Assembly (NCBI GenBank): GCA_963931925.1
Contig: OZ007567.1
Span: 85,677,677 to 85,741,676, forward strand
Reading direction: 5' to 3'
Length of the DNA: 64,000 nucleotides
Source of the DNA: Onchidella celtica
Lineage: Eukaryota; Mollusca; Gastropoda; Systellommatophora; Onchidiidae
In this document: positions 393-49,474 of the stretch, one piece after another
How positions within the stretch are numbered: the first letter of the stretch is position 1
Layout of the letters: every line of letters starts with the position of its first letter
Position numbers and translations under genes: made by a program
The notes under the pieces: model-generated
Database searches by the model: none
What the model was told of the DNA's origin: nothing
The model's input: the letters and a program-made list of their open reading frames with translations, nothing else

Positions 393-2105
393 AAGAAGTA
401 AAGTGCAGATTTGGCCTGGGGTGTAATGAGATTAGTATTATTGATTGAAATCACCCACATATTTTTCTCACTTACGTTCACCTGATAGTGAAGACTAGAT
501 TTAAATGTGCCTCAATAATAGGATCTCAAACAGAAACTATGTATCTAAAGTAGCCCACTATGACAAGGCGTCCACGAAAACTTACTGGACATGTTTTTCT
601 GTTTGTGTAGAAAATGTCAGGATTTTGTATTGTCGAGTTCTGTACTGTCATTGCTTCTTTCGGTAAACGCACTTAAAGATAAAAAAAAAGTAGATGAAGA
701 AAAAAGAATCCAGTCGGTTATTTGCAATGTTCGTTAAGCGACCGACTGCATAATAAACGGAATAACATAGTAGCTGAGCTTTGATCTGTACATAACATAG
801 TAGCTGAGCTTTGATCTAAGTTCATTTAACGTGACAAATTGATATGTTCGGGCTTGAGCTCGCACATCAAAGCATATCTGTCCTTCATCATCTGGAGAAA
901 GGCAGAAACGCTGCTAGCAATAAATCATCTCCTAGGATATACGTCTATTAGGTCTATGCCGCTGCTTTACCTGTTTCTTACAGGAAATTGTTAAGGGAGA
1001 CAACAAAACATGAAAACGTCTCCAGAGACTAAAACGCCCCAGTCAAATACGCGCTTCGGCTCATTGCTTGTTAACCCCTGAAAGACAGAGCCATGAGACA
1101 CACAAACCTTTTACTCTCATGCGTCCTGCCGTCGGTTTCTCGTAACGTGATATTTTAAGCCGCCTTCACTGTCATGATTTCCCCTCTGACGAGTACATTA
1201 CCGATTGTCAGGTACACTGACGACATCCCCAGCACCCAATGCTAGACACTAAAAGTGAAATTGAAACATTCACTGTTCTCAGCCAATCCTGTGCTGGCTC
1301 GAGATCATCCATAGACTGTTAGAATCTTCATCATATTTCAGGACTGCCATACCTGTCTCTGCACTCAAAAGATTCTTGCTCTCTGTTCCCTCCCTTTCTA
1401 TAGCATGATCAATAGGATTAATATGGAAGAATCCATTTTCGAAAAATTCCATCCAGTATCTTAGCATTCAAACTTGCAAATTCAGTGCAAGAGTGTAAAA
1501 TCTCACCTTGACAGTAAATGCACGTTTTGTTTTTCATCTCGAAACTAGTTATTTTCCACAGTCCACTTTGAGAATCCCTTTCAAGAACACATTATTGCGA
1601 AAAATTACGTGACAACGCTGATGGCAATCCTACATTATCTATAGTTATCCAAAGATACTGCTGCCAACAGCTGGCTGGATAAAGGGAGCACAAGAAGGGA
1701 ACCTGGGTCCACCATAATTTCATTGCTAGCTTTGCATCCTTTCTGAGCCAGAAGCAACATGCAGGCATGTCGATATCTTACACCCACGCGGCCGTGACAG
1801 ACAAACCGAAATATCTGAAAATTATGCACAGGCCGTATTAAAACCAGCAAGAGCAAAACCTTTTCAACTAGAATGGTCGGACAGGCAGAAATAGAATTAT
1901 TGTTAAGTCTTCTCAGGGGATTGTGTTATGTTTGCCAAGTCAGAGCTCATCTAATGCCTTAGACCAAAATGAGTCGCGACTGGTAGATCCGGGAACTCCC
2001 ATACATGATTGTATTACTGTGTTGCCCACAATACGTCTAACGGCCGTCCAGCTCAATGTACTGAGCGAAATGCTTGGTTGTAATTGGCATTGAAATGAAT
2101 AGACA
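393..2105. other. Unassigned AT-rich DNA
   Basis: I see no credible coding frame, RNA gene or element end here apart from the short 30-bp duplication at 762-817. The frames on the minus strand (about 60-73 codons) show no protein-like motif. Confidence 0.5.
762..817. repeat. Two-copy 30-bp tandem duplication
   Basis: ATAACATAGTAGCTGAGCTT begins at 762 and again at 792, and each copy continues TGATCT. The 26 matching bases are identical, so the duplication is recent. Confidence 0.85.
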
Positions 2106-2750
2106 GTGCCACTCAAACCTGACATCTAGTAAACTGACATGTCATATAGTGCCACTCAAACCTGACATCTAGTAAACTGACATGTCATATAGTGCCACTC
2201 AAACCTGACATCTAGTAAACTGACATGTCATATAGTGCCACTCAAACCTGACATCTAGTAAACTGACATGTCATATAGTGCCACTCAAACCTGACATCTA
2301 GTAAACTGACATGTCATATAGTGCCACTCAAACCTGACATCTAGTAAACTGACATGTCATATAGTGCCACTCAAACCTGACATCTAGTAAACTGACATGT
2401 CATATAGTGCCACTCAAACCTGACACCTAGTAAACTGACATGTCATATAGTGCCACTCAAACCTGACATCTAGTAAACTGACATGTCGTATAGTGCCACT
2501 CAAACCTGACATCTAGTAAACTGACATGTCATATAGTGCCACTCAAACCTGACATCTAGTAAACTGACATGTCATATAGTGCCACTCAAACCTGACATCT
2601 AGTAAACTGACATGTCATATAGTGCCACTCAAACCTGACATCTAGTAAAGTGACATGTCATATAGTGCCACTCAAACCTGACATCTAGTAAACTGACATG
2701 TCATATAGTGCCACTCAAACCTGACATCTAGTAAACTGACATGTCATAAT
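2106..2750. repeat. 43-bp minisatellite, 15 copies
   Basis: The unit starts GTGCCACTCAAACCTGACAT and recurs every 43 bp from 2106 to 2750, which is 15 copies. Copies are almost identical: I see only isolated changes (one ACACCTAG near 2423, one GTCGTATA near 2486, one GTAAAGTG near 2646). Each unit contains the perfect palindrome TGACATGTCA. There are no unique spacers, so it is a satellite and not a CRISPR array. The first unit overlaps the end of a meaningless minus-strand frame. Confidence 0.97.
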
Positions 2751-3685
2751 AATTGATTCCGCCCCACGCTTCACCTCAACAGCGGGAACATCATGAAACT
2801 TGCAGTTATGGAATCACTTTCTGCTGTATGAAGATTTATCAAAGATTTGGTAGAAGCCCCACCCCAAGACCGGACAACACCGCCTACAATTCACACATAC
2901 CATGCAAGTAAGAACAAACATATTGCTGTCAAGGAATAAACCATACACGTAGGCCTAAACTTCTGAAAACCTGGATTCGCCCCGCTAAAGAATTCTGCAG
3001 AAAGTACAGTTATTTCGCATTAGCGCCCGGGGGCTTCCTGCCAGGCACAAACTGGTATCGTACAAACCTAGGACAAACTGTGAAACGTCCCCGGACTTCT
3101 GGTGACATTTTCAGACTGTGGTTCCAGACAAAAGTTTTTAATATGTGCCCTCGATTGCGGAAAGGGTAAAATTAAGATGCCTATTTAGTCCTCCAGGAGA
3201 ACCAGACAGGATTTAACGTGTTTCAGACAAGAAGAAAAATCTCCATCGTAACATTTGAAATGTTTTTGGTAGTGATTAGTTCCCGCCTTCAAATACTGTT
3301 ATTTAGACTCACGAACTACCTGAATAGGATTGAAGCTAAAACGGGCGCACGACGAATATTTACTTTAGCTGACATTTAAGCTGAGAAAATAATGTTTCAT
3401 ATTACATCTTAAATGCAATTTAGGGTCATATTTCAATAGAGAAACATGCTGACTCTCAAAATAAGAAAGTCTTCAATAATTCTTTTGTCCAGAAACTGAC
3501 GAAATCGCGTACATCGTGAGATTATGTTGCAGTGCATCAACAGTGAATGAATACTACAGTAAAACTTTACTTAACACAGAGACAGACAAATAATATTTTC
3601 TGAAGAGGCAACCTTTCTTACGATTGAAAGGCAATATATACCACGTACCAAAACGCTTCCCTTCTTGTCAAGGAAATAGTACATG
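2751..3685. other. Unassigned DNA
   Basis: No coding frame above 60 codons, no repeat pair and no element ends were recognised. Confidence 0.5.
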
Positions 3686-3939
3686 TCGAGGGGTATTTGC
3701 CATAATGTTGTATGTTACATTTTGCCGATTTTGAGGTTTTGTCATGAAGGTGGTTCTCTCACTCCTAATTTCATTATGTATAAGCGTCATTCCAATCGGT
3801 TAAATCGGTTAAAAACTTTTCGAGACATGTTTGTGACGTCATTTTATATGCGTTTTAGCCCTTTTGCCGACCAAACTTCAATTCTCGTTTTCTCGAAAAG
3901 GCAAAAATAAACATACAACAATGTGGCAAATACCCGACG
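3686..3939. mobile_element. MITE with about 40-bp terminal inverted repeats
   Basis: The left end GGGTATTTGCCATAATGTTG (from 3691) is mirrored at the right end by ATACAACAATGTGGCAAATA (3913-3932). The match extends inward through TTTTGCC/GGCAAAA with a few mismatches. The interior has no meaningful frame: the 75-codon plus-strand frame simply reads across the element. Target duplications are not clear, so the superfamily is not assigned. Confidence 0.7.
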
Positions 3940-5237
3940 ATATTTTTCAAAACCTGGCGCATGGGAAACTTAACAAGCCCCCAGTGTAGGATTTGACATG
4001 CAACCGGCGCTGGAGTAGAGTTCTGTAATTTTCAAGTAAAGCCCCCAGAAGAGATGCACGAATGCGAACTCTCATTTTGATGCCAGCTTCAAGTCCATGC
4101 CTGACACTGATATATAAAAACTAACGATTGAACCACCGCCATTACATGATGTGAAAACTTGAAGTAAATAAACTATAAAAGAAAACTACAGTTCATTATT
4201 TCCCTATGTTCAATATATTCAACATTTCCACATTAATTAAACTGTCTTATGAAAAAAAAAAATCGTTAATTGTTTACGGGCTTGCTGAAATAAACCGTTA
4301 CAACACTATAATGGAAAAATTCTGATGGTAATTTCATCTTGAACGCACCCTATAAAGATTGCAATAATACTTCAGAATTGCCGTAACTTCTATTCTTTTT
4401 TCAGCACTCAGGAATTGTCCACGCCGACATATTATTTTCATTAGATTTTTTCCTCTCTTTCTCCTCGTTCTCTTACTTTTTACGTCATCAGACTCCTGCA
4501 TTCACTCGCCTTGTTCCCACAGCCATACATTTTTGAAACAGAACGACTTTTACGTACTATAGTTCGTCTTAGCTCCAGGGCATGTCATGTTATATTATTG
4601 TAATTTAATATAATGCCCTTAACAAGCGATTCTGTCTAGTGTTGCCTTCACTTTGATGTTGTCAATGTGCCATTCTCTCACCCCCCCCCCGGCACTTGCT
4701 GTCTTTGCTTCTGTTTCCCCCCCCTCTCTTCCCCCTCCTTTAGCGAATGCCTTCATCCTCTGTATTCTCTCGTAACCCAGGTGTGCATCAGCAGATCTTG
4801 ATCCGTCGGCTATTTAGATGCTAACGCCCCGACTTTGACTTTCAACGAGACCACGTGCTGACCAACTAGTTTTTTTTTTCTGTTATTTTCTCATTGAAAC
4901 TCAACATCGTGACGTCACCATTCAACTATCTGGCCAATCAAAATCGTTTGGAGCGCGGTTAGGCTAATTCCCCCCTTTTGGTCCCATTTCCGCTTTCCCA
5001 AGTTCGAACATCAGCGCATTAGTTCAATTACTCACACACGTTTCTGCCATTGTTCTGTGTATGTGTTATTTGTTTCGAAGACTTAAATATCTGTTTTCAA
5101 AAGCTAATGAAAACAAATGTCCCCATAATTAGTGGACGTCTGAATGGCAGTGAAAAAGATGTCTAATTCCCGAAAGAATTACCCTCAATTCATCCAGCGC
5201 TGTCTGCCCTTTGTTTTAATACCTTATCGTGCAAAAT
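3940..5237. other. Unassigned DNA with scattered promoter-type motifs
   Basis: No gene was recognised. A cluster at 4852-4938 holds an E-box CACGTG (4852), a CRE palindrome TGACGTCA (4910) and a CCAAT box (about 4934). This could be a promoter fragment, but no exon follows. A 10-C run lies at 4681-4690. Confidence 0.4.
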
Positions 5238-24975: not shown

Positions 24976-26116
24976 GGATCTGGTGATAAACGACAGCTGA
25001 TTCCCTACAATTTCAGTGGAAAATAAACGAATGGGCAAATAATATCTTTCCCTCGCTGTTTACGATCAGAAAAATGGCGTATGCAGAAAATCATCATTAA
25101 TTCTTGAAAATAGGATGTACCGACATTTGGGCATTTCTTCATCACACACCAAGAAAAAATGTTCTTGACAGAAATATACTGAAAGAAAAAAATTATAATC
25201 AAAACTCTTTTTGTCATAATTATTTGACATAGTAAGTTGTACTGCATTCAACAATAAGACAACTCACCGTATAAAAATAAAGTCCCCAAAGCTCAAAAAC
25301 GAAACTTTGGAGATTCACTAGTTTGTGAGAAACTGAATGAATCGAGCTTGTTGTAGACTAGCAGCTATAATTTATCGATGTGCTGTTAACTGGCTGTCCG
25401 CGAGCTCGGCGTTGTTTATTTCGTGCGGCAGACAGACTCCTACATCATTCTGTAAACCCACGCACAGTTTGAGAGCCAAGCGGTGAATTACATAACATGT
25501 CTGCTGAAACTTAAAAGAAAGTACTTAAATTTTGTGGAACAAAGACAGTAATCAAATTTTTATAACAAACTGAAATAATTATTGTTTAAATACTTGAACC
25601 GGATCTGAACTTTCTACTCTTTTTAAAATCTGGTAATTCTTCCGGGAGACAAAAATAATGGCATTGTTTTTCGCCCGCCTTTGTCAATACCCACCCAGTG
25701 TCCAAATTTTAGATCCGTTTCCTTTTTTTTTTTTTTCATTTCATTTTGTTTTCACCCATTCATGAGAACTAAGACCTTATCCTCCCTCCCCTCACCCCCT
25801 CCCAGCATACATAATATTGTCCTATTATTGTATTATTCGGCTTTGCCTAACTGCTGTCCATATACTTTAAAAATCGCTGAAAATCTGTCGGGTCGCGGCA
25901 TACTTGGAACAACAGCAACAATAACAGCTACAACAACAGTTTATATTGCAGATCCTCGCGCGGAACCAACAATATTTAATATTATACTTCTTTTTTTTCA
26001 TTATTATTATTCGCCATTTTTCTGACCGTAATCGGGGATGGAAACACTGTTTTGGTCATTGGTTTTTATTTTCCAGTGATATCACAAGGAATCAGCTGTC
26101 GTTTATCACCAGATCC
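24976..26116. mobile_element. 1.14-kb element with perfect 29-bp terminal inverted repeats
   Basis: 24976-25004 begins GGATCTGGTGATAAACGACA, and 26088-26116 is its exact inverse, ending in AGATCC. Weaker similarity continues inward (a shared TGGAAAATAAA about 20 bp further in). The interior shows no recognisable transposase, so it is probably a non-autonomous DNA transposon. No matching target duplication lies right at the ends, so the true boundary may be a few bases out and the superfamily is open. Confidence 0.75.
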
Positions 26117-27500: not shown

Positions 27501-29113
<1,613 letters not shown>

Positions 29114-29155
29114 CCCCGCCCGCGAGATTCTGTTTTACACAGCGTTGCCGGAAAG

Positions 29156-29395
29156 CCAAACAAAGCTCTACGTCACCACCTCACCCTTTGTGACGATAAT
29201 AAAATATCGCATGCGCAGTAGGAGGCATTTCCCTCTCCGCCATCGGCCAACTCTAGGCTAACTTATAGCTAGAATGCGCATGACGTCACATTGTGCTTTT
29301 GTTTAGTTTTTCCGCCATCGCGATTGTTTGGCCGGTGGATCAGCTGATTAGTGTAACTTAGAGATAATTATATCGAAGCGGTTTTGTTAATTAAA
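29156..29395 (+). promoter_or_regulatory. Promoter-like block upstream of the THAP exon
   Basis: CpG-richer than its surroundings. Contains an NRF1-like GCATGCGC (29209-29216), two YY1-like CCGCCAT motifs (29237 and 29312) and a perfect CRE TGACGTCA (29281-29288), all within 190 bp upstream of the THAP ATG at 29396. The cluster suggests that the element carried its own TATA-less promoter. Confidence 0.5.
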
Positions 29396-29640
29396 ATGCC
29401 TAATAGCTGCATTGTCGTTGATTGCTACGCGCGACAGGGGTGGAAAGGATGGATAAAAGTTGGTCAGATTCCCCACCATTCGTGTAAACAAAGGAAAGGA
29501 AGTGAAAGAATTGACCGAACGTCGTTCGACTGTGGTGTGGTTGACAAGCTACCAACCAGCAGGAGTGGCATAGATTTAGATCTAGACATTAAAAAAAAGT
29601 GAGTCGACCCATTCTGTTTGTGCCGAGCACTTCATCTCAG
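29396..29640 (+). pseudogene. THAP-domain first exon, frameshifted
   Basis: The frame starting at ATG 29396 opens MPNSCIVVDCYARQG, the typical start of a THAP (C2CH zinc-binding, sequence-specific DNA-binding) domain with its first two cysteines spaced C-x4-C. About 20 codons on, the expected continuation is found one base out of phase (LVRFPTIRVNKGKEV followed by KELTERR). The closing signature VCAEHFISG, which supplies the last Cys and His, lies at 29616-29642 in that same shifted phase. Between them are in-phase stops (around 29571-29585), and GIDLDLDIKKK reads in the first phase. So at least one, probably three, frame changes separate the blocks. The exon ends at a plausible donor (CAG|GTAGTT at 29640). 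The family is known; a decayed transposase exon is inferred from its position just inside the inverted end. Confidence 0.7.
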
Positions 29641-29984
29641 GTAGTTGTCAGTTTTAATAATTTATGAACAACGTGATGAAAGTAAGCCCGTCATTTCGGT
29701 CACAGAAGAGTTAGATCTAGATCAGATATGTGCAATGTACATTTCTCCACTCTGCAGGCTAGTTAGAGCTGTAGGCTTAGAGGTCTAGGGCGTGCGGTTA
29801 TCTTCATTTTTACCGCGCAATAAAGTCACCGACTAATAAATCTCAGTAATAATTAAAAACTTTCCTGTTGACTTGCTTTTAAGCAGTTCTAGATTTACAC
29901 TGTGGCCTACAATGAATTGAAGATGATGCACTGGTAAGATAGGCTACTGATTAAAATTCACCAGAGATAGCCAGAATGCAGTAG

Positions 29985-31995
29985 TATAAGGAAGTGAGTC
30001 CTGAGTGATGAGGTATGGAATCACAGTTAGATCTAGATCTGATCACACAGATGTTGAATTGCAGCAGTATGAGAGACAGAGAGTGAGCCTTGAATTGTGA
30101 GATACAACATAATAATTCAATCTATCTGTATTACACAGATATGAATAATAAAATATGAAATCATAGGCCTAATTAAATCTAATCCCCTATCACAGAGCTG
30201 TTGACCAGCAGCAATAAATATGAGAGATTGAGCCATGAGCGATGAAAGATAAAATTATGCTCAGATCTAGCCAGCATCACACAGATATGAGAGGGTGAGT
30301 CTTGAGTGACGAGATATGTAAGGATAATGGGTACCTATTTACCGCGAAACCCCACGAAACCCCGCGAAACCCCACGAAACCCCGCGGAACCCCGCGAAAC
30401 CCCACGCAATTTTTAATTTCAGTTCCTATTTTTTAAGTGTTGTCCGAAAAGTGAAACTGTAACGATACATTGTTTTCATAATTATGGTTTATTTACCATA
30501 AAATATACATGTAGCAACTTTTTAAAACTAAAAGTTTGGCTTAGTTTTGGTGTTTTAAAAGAATAATTTGACATTTTGTGTCGATGACCATCTGGCAATA
30601 TTGTTCAATGGTCACTTCGTGTTGCTAACCGCGTTTGCAACAAAAGAGAAAATTTCTGATTTTCAATTTCATTCCGCATCTTAAGGTTCGCAACTAAAGA
30701 GCAGGTAAGCATATGTTGTACTTCTGTTCTATTACGGTATTATATTTACGAATTAAGCTTTTAATAACGCTATTTACTTTTTTGGGGGGGGGGGGGATGT
30801 CACGTAAGATTTATCAACGGGCGTAGGAATTTGACTACCGAGCCTACATCAAGATCTACAATCTGGATCTAGATTTTAGCAGAGAATCTACTAGATCTAG
30901 ATTCTAGTCGATCTAGATTTCAGATTAAGTTTATGTTGTACTTTCTTTCATTTTCATTGTTTTTCCTTTTTATTGTTTTGGAATTTTCCGTTAGGCAGAT
31001 GCCGCACCGGACTCAAATCAGGAATGAAATTATCATAAAACAAATTTACATTTCAATGAACGGAAACACTAGGTGGTTTTGCGGAGTTTCGCTGGGTTTC
31101 GCGGGGTTTCATGGGGTTTCGCGGGGTTTCGCGGGGTTTCGTGGGGTTTCGTGGGGTTTCGCGGTAAATAGGTACCGAGGATAATTAAGTCTATATCAAT
31201 ACCACACAGATATGAGAGTGTGAGGCTCGAGTGATGAGATATGTAATGATAATGAAATCTAGATCTAGATTTATATCACACAGATATGAGAGTGTGAGCC
31301 TTGAGTCATGAGATATTTAATGATAATTAAATCTAGATCTAGATTTATATCACACAGGTATGACAGTGGGAGTCTTGAGTCATGAGATATGTAATGATAT
31401 TTAAATCTAGATCTAGATTTATATCACACAGATAAGACAGTGTGAGCCTTGAGTCATGAAAGATATGTAATGATATTTAAATCTAGATCTAGATTTATAC
31501 CATACAGGTATAAGAGTGTGCGCCTTGAGTGATGAGATATGTGTAATGATATTTAAATCTAGATCTTCATTTGTACCATACAGGTATGAGAGTGTGAGCT
31601 TTGGGTGATGAGATATGCAAGGATAATTAAATCTAGATCTAGATTTATATCACACAGATATGAGAGTGTGAGCCTTGAGTCATGAGATATGTAATTTGTA
31701 AAGATAATTAAATTTGGATCTAGATTTATATATTGCATAACAGGAGAGTGTGAGCCATGAGTGCTGAGTAGATCCAGATTTCTATTACACTGATATGAGA
31801 GTGTGACTTGAGTGATGAGATATGTAACCTAATGATAATTAAATCTAGATCCAGATTTCTATCACACAGATATGAGGGTGTGAGCTTTGACTGATGAGAT
31901 ATCTAATGACAGTTGAATCTAGATCAAGATCTAGATCTAGATTTATACCACACAGGTGGGAACCACAGCAATGTGTGAGAGCGGGTCTCGAGGGA
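29985..31995. repeat. 74-bp tandem array (interrupted)
   Basis: From 31203 to about 31725 the unit (CACACAGATATGAGAGTGTG ... TGATGAGATATGTAATGATA, then ATCTAGATCTAGATTT) recurs every 74-76 bp. For example, the CACACAG landmarks lie at 31203, 31277, 31351 and 31425, then 31501 and 31577 as CATACAG, and 31651. Longer, degenerate units extend left to about 29985 and right to about 31995. The array is split by the element at 30329-31177. The AGATCTAGATCT core is self-complementary. Confidence 0.88.
30329..31177. mobile_element. 849-bp hAT-like element with G-rich repeat-built inverted ends
   Basis: 8-bp direct repeats AGGATAAT (30321-30328 and 31178-31185) flank inverted ends that begin GGTACCTATTTACCGCG. 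Each end then continues as 7-8 copies of a 10-bp unit (GCGAAACCCC or ACGAAACCCC on the left, GGGGTTTCGC on the right), giving inverted arms of about 85 bp. The interior (about 30420-31070) is AT-rich with a 13-G run at 30784-30796 and no transposase. The 8-bp duplication suggests hAT or P type. It lies inside the 74-bp array, so it inserted after the array formed. Confidence 0.88.
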
Positions 31996-32150
31996 TGAGA
32001 CGCAAAGAGTGTGTTCAACAACATTCTGCCACCAAGGAAAGTTTCCACGTTCTCGCGGCTATTTCTTTAGACTATTACATTAGAGTGGGCATTACCCAAG
32101 GAATTCACCGTTTGTTCGGCTGTTATAAAAAATATGCAAGCAGTTATTTA

Positions 32151-32444
32151 CAAGGCATACCTTGAAACTAATTCCAGCGTTATTTTCAAGGCATACCTAC
32201 TTGTGTGTACATCAATCGCCAGGGCTACCCCAGCCCCTTTTCGCCTGACTAGTCAAGCAAGCCGTTATTTACAAGGCATACCTTGAAACTAACTCCAGGT
32301 TTCAGATTTATATTTTTCCAACTTTGATATAAAATCGGAATAGGATGCATAAACGTCGCCTACCTTAATACTGAAACAGCTTCTGATTGGTCAATGAAAC
32401 CTGCCTTGAAAATAACGCTGGCGTTATTTCCAAGGCATACCTTG
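32151..32444. repeat. Dispersed palindromic CAAGGCATACCTT motif, four copies
   Basis: CAAGGCATACC occurs at 32151, 32188, 32272 and 32431, three times completing the palindrome CAAGG-CATA-CCTTG. At 32404-32435 a 32-bp near-perfect palindrome (CCTTGAAAATAACGC / GCGTTATTTCCAAGG) precedes the last copy. The cluster is subterminal in the 3.5-kb element and may be a transposase-binding region or a decayed small insert. Confidence 0.6.
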
Positions 32445-32633
32445 AAAATAACCACTTAGAAAAAGCATAGCCATGTTAAAGGGAGGTGACTCCCAATTCC
32501 AATTAACAGGCTTTACCCAAAGAATTCGGTGACGTAATGATCGCCTGTGCGGTTATTATAAATAGTCACGGGGATTCCAAAGAAGTACCTCCTTTCCGGC
32601 AACGCTGTGTAAAAAAGAATCTCGCGCCCCGCC

Positions 32634-33770
32634 CACACAACAGGAAATGGTATGTAGATATGAAATGTTGCAAACATAAAATGAAAGTGTATTTAATAAA
32701 TAATCTGCAGATATCCGGAATGTCTGACTTGATGTCCAAAAATCTGATGTTTTACATTTTATCTACGTATTGAAACTCCCGTAAGTTTTTTATCTGTTTA
32801 TCCATTGACCCCATTTTGGTGAAAATTCCAGGGAGACAATGATACATAGAACTTGGGAAGTACTTTAACCGAACTAGGACATTCTGGGAGTGGCGTGAAT
32901 CCATGGTCGTAGGTGACGACCTCATATGGTATTAACCCTCTGGAATCCACTTTATTTTCAAAGAAGCCTGAAAGGCATCATGTCTGCACTATCAATGTTC
33001 TATGGCGTTCCTAGCAATGTCGCCATGATGAAATAGACGATCATACCACTGGAGATATGAAATGAATCTGTGGTCTTCAAGAAGTACAGTGAAATACTGC
33101 TGATGGCTGGCTACTTTTTCATTATACTGTGCTATAAAACTCTGGGAGGTAATGAAGACACAGCATTTTCCACAGTAAATCTAATGAAGCAGTTTCCAGA
33201 ATGGCAGAGTCCTATTCAGGGCTGTATGAGAGGGCAAGTGATGGGATGGTACTGTCTCTTCAGGCACTGAAAGAAAGTACACAGAGAACAGGTACTTAAG
33301 TTATCCTGAATGTCAAGAAAACGACCTAATTATGTAAAAATTCGGGACTATCGGGGTCAGTTCAGCTACCCTCCCAGCTTGGCGAGTACAGTAAATCAAT
33401 CACTATCCCTTTCATTAAGTTCTGCCCATGCGAGCTTTGTAGACTACTTTTGCGGTCAATGATCGCTTAGATCAATATGTTATAGTACACCCATGTCACG
33501 TAAATGTCGGACACTCTACTCCCAAATGGTAACAGTGATATATATCCCATCTGTATTCTCAAATGATATAAAATGGGACAGCCTCACCCAATACCCTGTA
33601 TTAATAATGTTGTCATCTGCCCTTTTATGAATACCTGTATGAGGTCCTGTATGAGGCAAATTTTATGTATTTTAGTGTTGTTGTGGTCTTTTTTCAGAAC
33701 TGACGACTGTGCTTGGAGTAGTAGTGTTAACTGATTTGAGTCTCGTAATCTAAAATTTAGTTTGCAACAA
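32634..33770. other. Unassigned DNA
   Basis: Nothing recognised to the right of the 3.5-kb element. Confidence 0.5.
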
Positions 33771-46321: not shown

Positions 46322-48541
46322 AAAATTCTTTATTTCCATGTGAATACAATACAGATTGTACAGATATAATATCGAAACATTACATCTAAGTGGAAATTGT
46401 GCCATGGTGGGTGGCTTTACTTTATCTCTTCTATGGAAGGGATGGACAAAACTGGAACATGTTTTTAAATAGAGTTAATAATTCCTATTATACGACCCGC
46501 ATCTTTTATTCCAGATTTTGAATGATCCAATAACTGAACTGATACTACAGTACTTAGATATGAACTTACTTTCTGAATTGTTAATGTTTAGTTTCTTCAG
46601 CCCAGTAATAAATCTTCTGTGAACATTTCCCAAACTTCCAATTAGTAAAACTATTATATCACATTGGTATCCCATAGCACTGATTTCAATGGCTAATGGG
46701 AAATATTTGTCAAATTTGCCTTGATAACATCTATCAATGTAACAGTCGTATGGTACTGCTACTTCAACGATCTGGACTTTCTTATTAGTATTGTCTATAA
46801 CTGTGATGTCAGGACGTGTTGCTCTGGTGGTAAAGGATGTTGCATCTGATCCAAACATTGATGGGTTGATGAGTCTGTCTTTTAGTACTTCTTTGTTACG
46901 ATTGTAATAAGTGATCTTCCTTTCAATAATGTCCATTATTCTGTTGTGTCTTGCTTGGTACATGCCGCTGAATTTCGTGCACCCGTTCAATGCATGGCAT
47001 ACTGTTTCCGAGTGGTGGTGGCATAACTTGCATGATTTATTATAGGCGTTGGGGTAGTACAGGGACAGTAGGGTCTCGACTTCTAGGATCTGCAGTCGCC
47101 CACGTGTGACAAATGATCTGATCTTGTCATCCAAACTATGGTTAGTCAAATGTTCGTATGACACACTGTGGTTGATATCTTTTGCCTCGCGGACAATGAG
47201 GCCTTGAGATGACTTTGACAACAGTTCCTCCTGGCATCTTTTTAAACGATCTCTCTTAAACGTAGAGGAGAACTTGTTTGAATCAGTAAACATGTAGGAG
47301 ACTTCGTCGTCAATTTTTATTTCCAGTGCGTATTCATTATGGCGACACAGCATGAGGATGTTATTTCTGGTACACATTTCATTCAGAAAGATCCATTCAG
47401 ATCTTCCCCATTTGACATTGGTATTCTTCACTACAGCTCCTTTATTGTTGACTGCATACCCAGCAAAATTTGGGTAGTCTTCGGTGGCGATCGCTTTGCG
47501 TTGGTCCATATGTAAATGGATGGATCTTCTTGCTGTCTCTTTCACGACAGGATCATCACTGTTTAGGAGTGATAAGTGGAAAGACATATACTTGGCATAA
47601 TAGATGACTCGAGGGTTCAAGATCCCAAGGCCACCTTTTGACTTAGGGCTGAAAAAATATGATCTGGTGGATGATGAGTTGAGCCCAAGCCAGTGTCTGA
47701 TGTGAAAGACCATGGTGTCTTCCAAGTGATCAAGATTCATTTCTGTAAACATTAAGTTGGAGAAGTAAAATATCAGCTTAGACAGACACATCACGGTGAT
47801 AGTTTGCAGTTTTGCTGACGTTGGTAACAAAGATGTGTCAATATTTGCCATGGTTGTATCAAAATCTGCAATTAGTTTTTCCACTTGCTGATTGTTGCTG
47901 GTGTTTGTGATGTTCATTTCATGACCAAGATAGATGTACTGCTGGTCACTTTCGTACATTGGAATAGGTGCACCTTGGATATAAAGGTTAAGCTCTCCAG
48001 TCTTAGCGTTTTTCTTCCATTTATTCCCTGTGCGCTGGCCGTGAAGAATCGCGCATTTCCTATGCTTCACTTCCATGCAGGAAGTTTTCATAAATATGTC
48101 CGTTTTCCTTATCATTTCTTCCATTTCACGCTCATCAGCTGCGCAGATGCTAACGTCGTCGACGCAACCCTGGACTGGATTAAGACTGCTCCTAATTAGT
48201 CCCTGTACATCATAAGGCTGGTTAATCCATCGAAGCCATTTATCTATGCCCTGTTCAAAAACGATAACTGACCAAGGACAGCCTTGAATTACCCCCCTTC
48301 CTCTTGATATTATATTGGTTGCTCCCCTTGCGGTCTTGACTTGAAAACTAGACCCGTTGTATATATCATGTGTTAACCGTATGTATTTATTGGGGTAGCC
48401 ACTTTCTTGTAGTTGTTCTATCATGAAAGAGTGTTCAATGCTTCCAAAAGCATCTTTGATGTCAATGAAGCCCATAAATAGCTTTCCAGTTTTGTTGAGA
48501 AAGTTGCTGATAACTGACTTAAAGCAGAATACGTGTTCCTG
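46322..48541 (-). mobile_element. 5'-truncated non-LTR retrotransposon (REL-endonuclease LINE)
   Basis: About 2.2 kb, read on the minus strand. The 5' end breaks off inside the reverse transcriptase at about 48541, where sequence turns into GATA/GACA repeat. The 3' UTR (46474 to about 46322) ends GGAAATAAAGAATTTTT and passes straight into (ATCT)n. The coding part is uninterrupted, so insertion is recent. Both flanks are the same tetranucleotide in the same orientation, which is what insertion into an existing microsatellite would leave. The 3' repeat could alternatively be the element's own tail. Confidence 0.85.
46475..48541 (-). CDS. Reverse transcriptase / restriction-like endonuclease, 5'-partial
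   Basis: Open for 688 codons to TAA at 46475-46477. Residues are numbered from the first internal Met (48475); 22 in-frame residues upstream (beginning QEHVFCFKS) also match the LINE reverse transcriptase fold, so that Met is not the start. Visible motifs are RT block A FIDIKDAF with Asp5, block B RGVIQGCPWS (60-69), and the catalytic Asp pair in CVDD (106-107; Val-Asp-Asp where most LINEs have Ala-Asp-Asp). Then come a CCHC knuckle C482-x2-C485-x8-H494-x4-C499, and a PD-(D/E)XK-type nuclease core RPD (554-556), Glu571 in VEVAVP and K587/K590-Y591. RT plus a C-terminal CCHC and such a nuclease defines the R2/R4/NeSL-type lineages, which nick target DNA and reverse-transcribe their RNA onto it. 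The N-terminal DNA-binding region and early RT blocks are missing, so the copy cannot be autonomous. The exact clade needs a tree. Confidence 0.92.
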   Translation of the reverse strand, partial: QEHVFCFKSVISNFLNKTGKLFMGFIDIKDAFGSIEHSFMIEQLQESGYPNKYIRLTHDIYNGSSFQVKTARGATNIISRGRGVIQGCPWSVIVFEQGIDKWLRWINQPYDVQGLIRSSLNPVQGCVDDVSICAADEREMEEMIRKTDIFMKTSCMEVKHRKCAILHGQRTGNKWKKNAKTGELNLYIQGAPIPMYESDQQYIYLGHEMNITNTSNNQQVEKLIADFDTTMANIDTSLLPTSAKLQTITVMCLSKLIFYFSNLMFTEMNLDHLEDTMVFHIRHWLGLNSSSTRSYFFSPKSKGGLGILNPRVIYYAKYMSFHLSLLNSDDPVVKETARRSIHLHMDQRKAIATEDYPNFAGYAVNNKGAVVKNTNVKWGRSEWIFLNEMCTRNNILMLCRHNEYALEIKIDDEVSYMFTDSNKFSSTFKRDRLKRCQEELLSKSSQGLIVREAKDINHSVSYEHLTNHSLDDKIRSFVTRGRLQILEVETLLSLYYPNAYNKSCKLCHHHSETVCHALNGCTKFSGMYQARHNRIMDIIERKITYYNRNKEVLKDRLINPSMFGSDATSFTTRATRPDITVIDNTNKKVQIVEVAVPYDCYIDRCYQGKFDKYFPLAIEISAMGYQCDIIVLLIGSLGNVHRRFITGLKKLNINNSESKFISKYCSISSVIGSFKIWNKRCGSYNRNY

Positions 48542-48640
48542 TATAGATAATAGATAGATAGATAGATAGATAGACAGACAGACAAACAGATAGGTAGTTA
48601 GATAGACAAACAGACAGACAAACAGATAGGTAGATAAACG
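48542..48640. repeat. Degenerate (GATA)n/(GACA)n array at the LINE 5' side
   Basis: GATA units then GACA/AACA/GGTA variants to about 48640. Same strand phase as the array on the 3' side. Confidence 0.93.
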
Positions 48641-49474
48641 AGTGAGTGATTACTTTTAAAGGCCGCCATGGAAAGCAGAAATAATTCATTCATTATCGTC
48701 AACGAGTACATGATATTTATTCTGTAAATAATTGTTTACTTCAAAAGAGGTGAGCATTTCTGGTCGTTGCCTTTGATAAATACAGTGCAGTACAGTCCTC
48801 GCACTGGCCAGTGCTATATTAATATCTGGTCTTTCTATCCAATTTTCTTGACGCTCTCACTTTCAGGTGGAGACCAGGGCCCGTTGATGAGTTGGTCATA
48901 CTATACCATTCACTCTAAGCATACTTCGTACCGTTTTAATAAGCGCAGGTTCAAGTATCAGGATATTCGGGAGACTGTTACCATCGATACCACTTTTCAT
49001 TTAAACCAGTCCGACATTTGAGATGACGTAAATTTGGTAGCCAACATTTTGCTGTCGCATGCCTGAACTTTAAAAATGTTAATAGTCAAGAAAATATGTC
49101 ATTTATGATCTCATTTTCAGGTAGCTTGAAAACAGGAAGCTTTGAATTATATACTGTTTTCTAACACGAATTCAACGCTCTAGTGGTTTAGTTACCACAC
49201 CATATTTAGAGAGCATAACACATGACATTTCTTCATAATAGTTCTTAACAGTGAGACATCCGCTTCTCTCTTACATGTTAAACTTTTCAATATGACCTGA
49301 TAAGCATGAGCTTAATTTGTTTTCCTATGCCATTCAGTTGAAACTGTATTCCTTATCATTCATTTCTAATGTCATCATCTTATTTTAAATGTTGACGTGA
49401 CCCAATTAACACTCTGGGTTTACATAATTCTCTTTGAATGATAAATGGACATCGAGGTTAGATCAAATAACATA
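48641..49474. other. Unassigned DNA
   Basis: Nothing recognised. Confidence 0.5.

Follow-up and report, generated by a model that had tools for sequence, protein, structure and literature searches.

A non-autonomous inverted-repeat transposon family with a probably borrowed THAP segment in Onchidella celtica

Is a transposon that combines terminal inverted repeats (TIRs) with a nearby THAP exon necessarily a relic of a P element? The question is raised by a locus of the gastropod Onchidella celtica (assembly GCA_963931925.1), located in a stretch of 64,000 nucleotides of contig OZ007567.1 (forward strand, positions 85,677,677 to 85,741,676), hereafter "the window", whose own numbering is used below. 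At 29122-32625 the window contains an element, referred to here as the outer element, that the original prediction interpreted from the sequence alone as a P-element-like remnant retaining a THAP exon. We searched the assembly (1.14 Gb, 43 contigs) for its relatives and for a possible source of its mobility. In our reading, to which we assign a probability of roughly 70%, the outer element is a non-autonomous composite TIR DNA transposon that acquired its THAP sequence by nesting of a second transposon and that leaves a 9-bp footprint at CCSGG-like targets. The broader expectation of a multi-copy DNA transposon was borne out: the family has paired TIRs, target-site duplications of constant length, many dispersed copies and sequence of THAP origin, and the 7 copies searched yielded no transposase belonging to it.

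Termini, copy number and insertion footprint

The 3.5-kb spacing and near-perfect match of the two ends, as first reported, hold up: the inverted repeats at 29121-29155 and 32592-32626 agree at 34 of 35 positions. The window contains two places with exact inverted 20-mer pairs at a spacing of 1-10 kb, one of them being the ends of the outer element, whose inverted termini exceed chance. We set the termini at GCGAG...CTCGC, which gives 34-bp repeats at 29122-29155 (GCGAGATTC...GGAAAG, forward strand) and 32592-32625 (reverse strand). Allowing up to 3 mismatches, the terminal 34-mer has 161 forward and 168 reverse matches in the genome, 329 in total, and a reversed-control 34-mer has none in either orientation. 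Searches with the first 187 bp and the last 201 bp return 227 and 303 candidates; the 40 scored in each case are 94-97% identical, excluding the window itself. The family comprises at least some 160 copies.

Among 100 listed of the 329 terminus sites, 25 copies could be paired by eye. Their spans range from 1.6 to 9.8 kb, with 14 of the 25 falling between 2.2 and 2.45 kb, and the window copy measures ~2.31 kb once two nested inserts are subtracted. Across the left 1.1 kb of 19 copies, the median pairwise difference is 6%; 11 of these copies lie within 2% of the majority sequence and the window copy lies 2.5% away (L039, with an indel in its terminus, was left out of this estimate). The larger divergence of a few copies is probably due in part to insertions and misalignment. 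Judging from these distances, the main cluster amplified fairly recently.

Directly abutting the termini are two copies of GCCCCGCCC (29113-29121 and 32626-32634). The CCCCGCC repeat previously noticed outside both ends is thus present, but it is part of a duplication of 9 bp rather than 7 or 8. We examined 26 copies for this feature: 22 of the 25 paired copies (L053 and L054 among them), the window, L050, L037 and L005/L010. An exact 9-bp direct repeat abuts GCGAG...CTCGC in 20 of the 26, and five more fit a 9-bp duplication with 1-2 mismatches; in L037 the length is ambiguous, since 9 bp and 6 bp each leave 3 mismatches. Because the base directly outside the termini varies among copies, the 9-bp repeat does not consist of a shorter duplication extended by an invariant base. 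A literature search joining THAP domain, 9-bp target-site duplication and transposon returned no paper.

The duplicated sequence is itself distinctive. The 20 exact duplications are 79% GC, versus 46% in the 25 bp further out. When the left duplication copy is read in both orientations, C4 and G6 are found in all 26 copies and C3 and G7 in 81%; of the 20 exact duplications, 14 show the full CCSGG, and that of the window copy is one of the 6 that depart from it. The insertion target is palindromic, with a CCSGG-like consensus. Joined flanks assign L057, L095 and L054 to a single repeated sequence, where the three insertions share one CCCGGG core and occur in both orientations; L050 and L077 sit in a second, tRNA-like repeat. 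Within each of these two repeats the copies lie at or near a common CCSGG, and across the five the same target is thus hit in both orientations. At 3 of the 26 insertion sites (L077, L091, L050) there is an exact motif resembling the tRNA B box, which suggests that tRNA-derived repeats serve as landing sites; no tRNA was called in the 6 loci scanned.

The THAP segment and its probable source

The THAP sequence starts 274 bp from the left end of the outer element. The surrounding 5' fragment (29267-29723, forward strand) is homologous to a second transposon of 1.13 kb, hereafter THAP50, and covers its terminus (AGGTAGAATGCGCATGACGTCAC), leader, THAP exon and intron start. Base 1 of THAP50 corresponds to window position 29267, directly after T-AT, the target at which the left terminal segment of the outer element (29122-29266, forward strand) ends. 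In BLAST, THAP50 matches the window over 29267-29723 (68% identity) and nowhere else, and the alignment score is 510 versus at most 229 in 100 base shuffles. Since the homology begins at the terminus of a transposon, the THAP exon of the outer family appears to have come with an older insertion of such an element, and the segment was probably borrowed.

THAP50 has 804 candidates in the genome, and among the 40 scored the 39 besides the query are 98-99% identical (L099:1445-2578, also L051, L056, L098-L105). The unit is bounded by AGGTAGAATGCGCAT...ATGCGCATTCTACCT and carries an intact THAP open reading frame (ORF; Pfam score 42 bits); no transposase was found within its 1.13 kb. Its target-site duplication is AT, as seen in L099, L101 and L105, which were read at both ends; TATA had been considered as the duplication and was excluded by L101 and L105. 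THAP50 is a young and independently mobile THAP-only unit. Two outer copies, L044 and L053, later received it at a shared TATA site located 12 bp from the ancestral T-AT point, one in each orientation. A pattern search for THAP50-type termini with upstream bases unlike those of the outer family found 10 places: two adjoin THAP-exon matches of outer copies, and eight have other upstream bases, mostly in THAP50-like variants; the place at C4:75693505 has a terminus of the outer subtype.

In the outer family itself the exon is decayed. The exon noticed in the window is there, but no single frame encodes it: the ATG frame (29396-29605, forward strand) stops ahead of the CAEHF codons, which we take to be the C..H of the THAP C2CH motif and which lie in another frame (29619-29633, forward strand), with a GT near 29641 as a possible splice donor. 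The ATG-frame ORF has no Pfam match at E up to 1. In 20 of 24 outer copies translated, stops or a frame switch part the two halves of the exon, and lesions are shared between copies. L003, L037, L049 and L050 are open from ATG to CAEHF; only L037 keeps the middle in the real THAP register, via a deletion, and Pfam finds no THAP in any of these four at the thresholds used. The suggestion that other copies might encode a THAP-only protein therefore finds its counterpart in THAP50 and not in the outer family, whose frame is mostly interrupted. A genome search with the THAP-exon read-through returned 6412 candidates; among the 150 listed, the outer family comes first, followed by a ~50%-identical set in which many matches have one common score; this set is THAP50.

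These observations are consistent with the following course of events. A transposase encoded elsewhere would recognize the 34-bp ends and move the element by cut and paste, staggering its cuts by 9 bp at palindromic, CC(C/G)GG-like targets. A founder copy would have acquired the 5' end (terminus, leader and THAP exon) of a second transposon, inserted at a T-AT target ~145 bp inside the left end, and the right end of that insertion would have disappeared. The main cluster would have amplified with its THAP frame already damaged, making the THAP piece a passenger, and the window copy would have received two further insertions after landing.

Several points weigh against this account. In L038, a diverged copy, THAP stays in register for its first two thirds and then meets a stop (this piece has no Pfam match), so the frame is not broken alike in every copy. 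No outer copy free of the THAP segment was found among 3 read of 5 pattern matches, these three being a deletion derivative, a mutated site and an insertion at the site. The capture is deduced from the left junction. Finally, no autonomous partner was found among the 100 listed of 329 termini.

Transposase search and interior of the window copy

We used tblastn (E up to 1) with five proteins from the same genome, two of P type, two from Mutator-like elements (MULEs) and one of ISL2EU type, against 7 copies (the window, L037, L049, L050, L053, L054 and L097). The sole match lay in L049, inside a nested unit, and the two MULE proteins matched none of the 7; no transposase belonging to the outer element was found by this test, from which introns and divergence could hide one. 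A genome search with the terminus, proposed earlier as a check of P-element identity, did yield many paired copies, but with duplications of 9 bp and with no P/THAP9-type transposase of their own in these 7 copies.

The nested unit in L049 (6.3 kb) is a 4290-bp insertion (reverse strand, 599-4888). It is bounded by perfect inverted repeats of 24 bp (CATAGATATAG...) and by GTTAGACT, an 8-bp sequence repeated exactly. Loci around P-type frames (such as L025, L026 and L028-L031) match much of it at 98-99% identity, and its 271-codon frame, antisense to the outer element, matches the P protein of L055 at 28% over 95 residues. As this unit is P-like and has an 8-bp repeat, a P-type unit in this genome duplicates 8 bp and has ends other than those of the outer element. 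The end sequence of the unit recurs within L020, L025, L026 and L028.

The longer copies were considered as autonomous partners and rejected: L053 (7.3 kb) holds a THAP transposon and a 952-codon frame that by eye resembles a long interspersed nuclear element (LINE), L097 (9.7 kb) contains a reverse transcriptase frame, L054 (5.4 kb) contains undefined filler, and the interior of L049 is the nested P-type insertion. A P-type unit (L055) and a MULE unit (L112) were likewise set aside, having different ends. The terminus followed by A/T, the pattern for partners with other subterminal sequence, accounts for 4 zero-mismatch cases of 312 matches, two of them in L052 and L013.

Satellite-like DNA was originally thought to have replaced the transposase. 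Units of ~74 bp do lie between the ends, but sibling copies have this repeat region too, along with the left 1.2 kb and the right end, so nothing was replaced locally. In the window, the start of the repeat region (29975-30328) is separated from the remainder of the array (31178-31960; Tandem Repeats Finder, 31199-31695) by insert 1, an 849-bp nested element (30329-31177) that has GGGTACC termini (ends GGGTACCTATTTACCGCG), subterminal repeats of 10 bp and, as a direct repeat of 8 bp, AGGATAAT. Its two sides join directly in 8 of 13 sibling loci (L004, L006-L008, L012-L014, L016); in the remaining 5 the repeat array obscures the join, or the join falls outside the locus. Insert 2 (32136-32466), a nested element of 331 bp, has inverted-repeat arms and AT on either side; it precedes the right terminal segment (32469-32625, forward strand) and is missing from all 7 of the sibling right-end loci compared. 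Both inserts are private to the window copy.

Rfam and tRNA scans of the window returned nothing. Elsewhere in the window, a perfect inverted repeat of ~29 bp (24976-25004 and 26088-26116, 1.1 kb apart) may mark another miniature inverted-repeat transposable element (MITE), and an open reverse-transcriptase frame (RVT_1) at 46475-48649 on the reverse strand belongs to a LINE-type element.

Competing origins and known systems

The idea that the outer element belongs to the P superfamily, or is a MITE mobilized by a P transposase with a 9-bp stagger, deserves attention, and its strong form would make the THAP sequence the element's own first exon. The position of that sequence near the left end fits, the GC-rich palindromic footprint recalls the P-element target footprint GTCCGGAC, and P transposases are plentiful, with 1146 PF21787 candidates in the genome. 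One of them, L055:213-4468, carries an open frame of 991 codons, perfect TIRs of 31 bp and a repeat of 7-8 bp (further matches are listed with the same frame length). As for duplication length, 1360 is described with 7-8 bp. PMC4168063 gives 7 bp, rarely 8, for Galileo and 8 bp for P. BuT5, a MITE associated with a P element (PMC4079207), is described with 9-bp duplications at an inversion (PMC3355041) and with an 8-bp duplication for another copy (PMC2775673). The 9-bp length alone thus does not exclude a P-type mover, and we dropped the argument that P is refuted here because it always duplicates 7-8 bp. Other evidence makes the P origin unlikely in our view: the THAP homology starts at the terminus of another transposon, and the P-type units read (L055 and the L049 insertion) duplicate 7-8 bp and have other ends, in contrast to the exact 9 bp in most outer copies. 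We further compared 111 typed termini on C1-C6 with 47 MULE, 62 THAP and 59 P matches, taken from 150 listed of 453, 1893 and 1146 candidates, respectively. Among the matches listed, P lies at least 56 kb and THAP at least 30 kb from a typed terminus. These data do not establish the identification as a P element, and P is a less likely candidate for the mover.

A non-autonomous Mutator-like element with a captured transposon fragment is a possible but doubtful alternative. Duplications of ~9 bp are typical of Mutator-like elements, as seen exactly in 20 of the 26 outer copies, and the genome holds MULE transposases with long open frames (453 candidates). The nearest listed MULE match in the same comparison, however, is 6.7 kb from a typed terminus and outside the pair, the next is 38 kb away, and no MULE transposase lies inside terminus pairs on C1-C6 among the 150 listed of 453. 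The sole MULE unit whose ends were read, L112:381-7262, combines an open frame of 839 codons with inverted ends of 64 bp at 94%, but its termini differ from those of the outer element and no clean duplication was seen. In animals, TIR elements are known to capture fragments, although PMC8277862, the source for this, reports no Pack-MULE in its 100 animal genomes. A chance inverted repeat beside a host THAP gene is refuted by the hundreds of termini and their common 9-bp duplications, and no host gene was identified among the 150 listed of 6412 THAP-exon matches, few of which were read individually; we give this explanation practically no weight.

More speculatively, and in our judgment improbably, the outer family would be the trace of a P-like or undescribed transposase lineage whose 9-bp stagger falls on a CCSGG-like palindrome with an invariant C-N-G core. 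If true, its one ancestral and two later encounters with THAP transposons within 12 bp would be a case of nesting that passes THAP exons from one transposon group to another.

Under the main reading, in which the THAP exon seems to have arrived by nesting, the family shows that an element can resemble a P relic without owning its THAP, which makes "TIR + THAP = P" an unsafe annotation rule. The 9-bp CCSGG-like footprint is specific enough to help in hunting for the missing transposase.

Compared with known systems, the composite outer element shares with the P superfamily (P, Galileo, 1360, BuT5) its TIRs, a palindromic target motif, THAP near the left end and repeat-bearing non-autonomous copies, and it differs in its CCSGG-like core, its seemingly borrowed THAP and the lack of a P transposase linked to its ends. 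Mutator-like elements and Pack-MULEs are similar in the 9-bp duplication and in being TIR elements with foreign sequence; the outer cargo is instead a transposon fragment rather than a host gene, and no MULE transposase is linked to it. Animal Pack-TIRs likewise amplify an internal foreign fragment, but as described in PMC8277862 they hold non-transposon sequence, whereas the cargo here is transposon-derived and may be explained by plain nested insertion.

THAP domains are found in P, Kolobok and ISL2EU transposases according to PMC4168063, PMC6004289 and PMC4482050. Kolobok carries THAP and uses a TTAA target (PMC6004289); a literature search joining Kolobok, THAP, TTAA, transposase and target-site duplication returned no paper. 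ISL2EU, for which PMC9179366 mentions a THAP or HTH domain, has a similar locus in this genome (L116, with YqaJ and HTH_Tnp_4/DDE_Tnp_4 frames), and THAP50 ends or THAP were absent from the 5 HTH_Tnp_4 loci read (150 listed of 406 candidates). The ISL2EU group (PHIS) resembles THAP50 in its AT duplication and THAP domain, THAP50 differing in that no transposase was found in its unit. The targets also differ: THAP50 duplicates AT within T-AT-N, whereas ISL2EU, in the account given in PMC4482050, duplicates it within AATT (A-AT-T).

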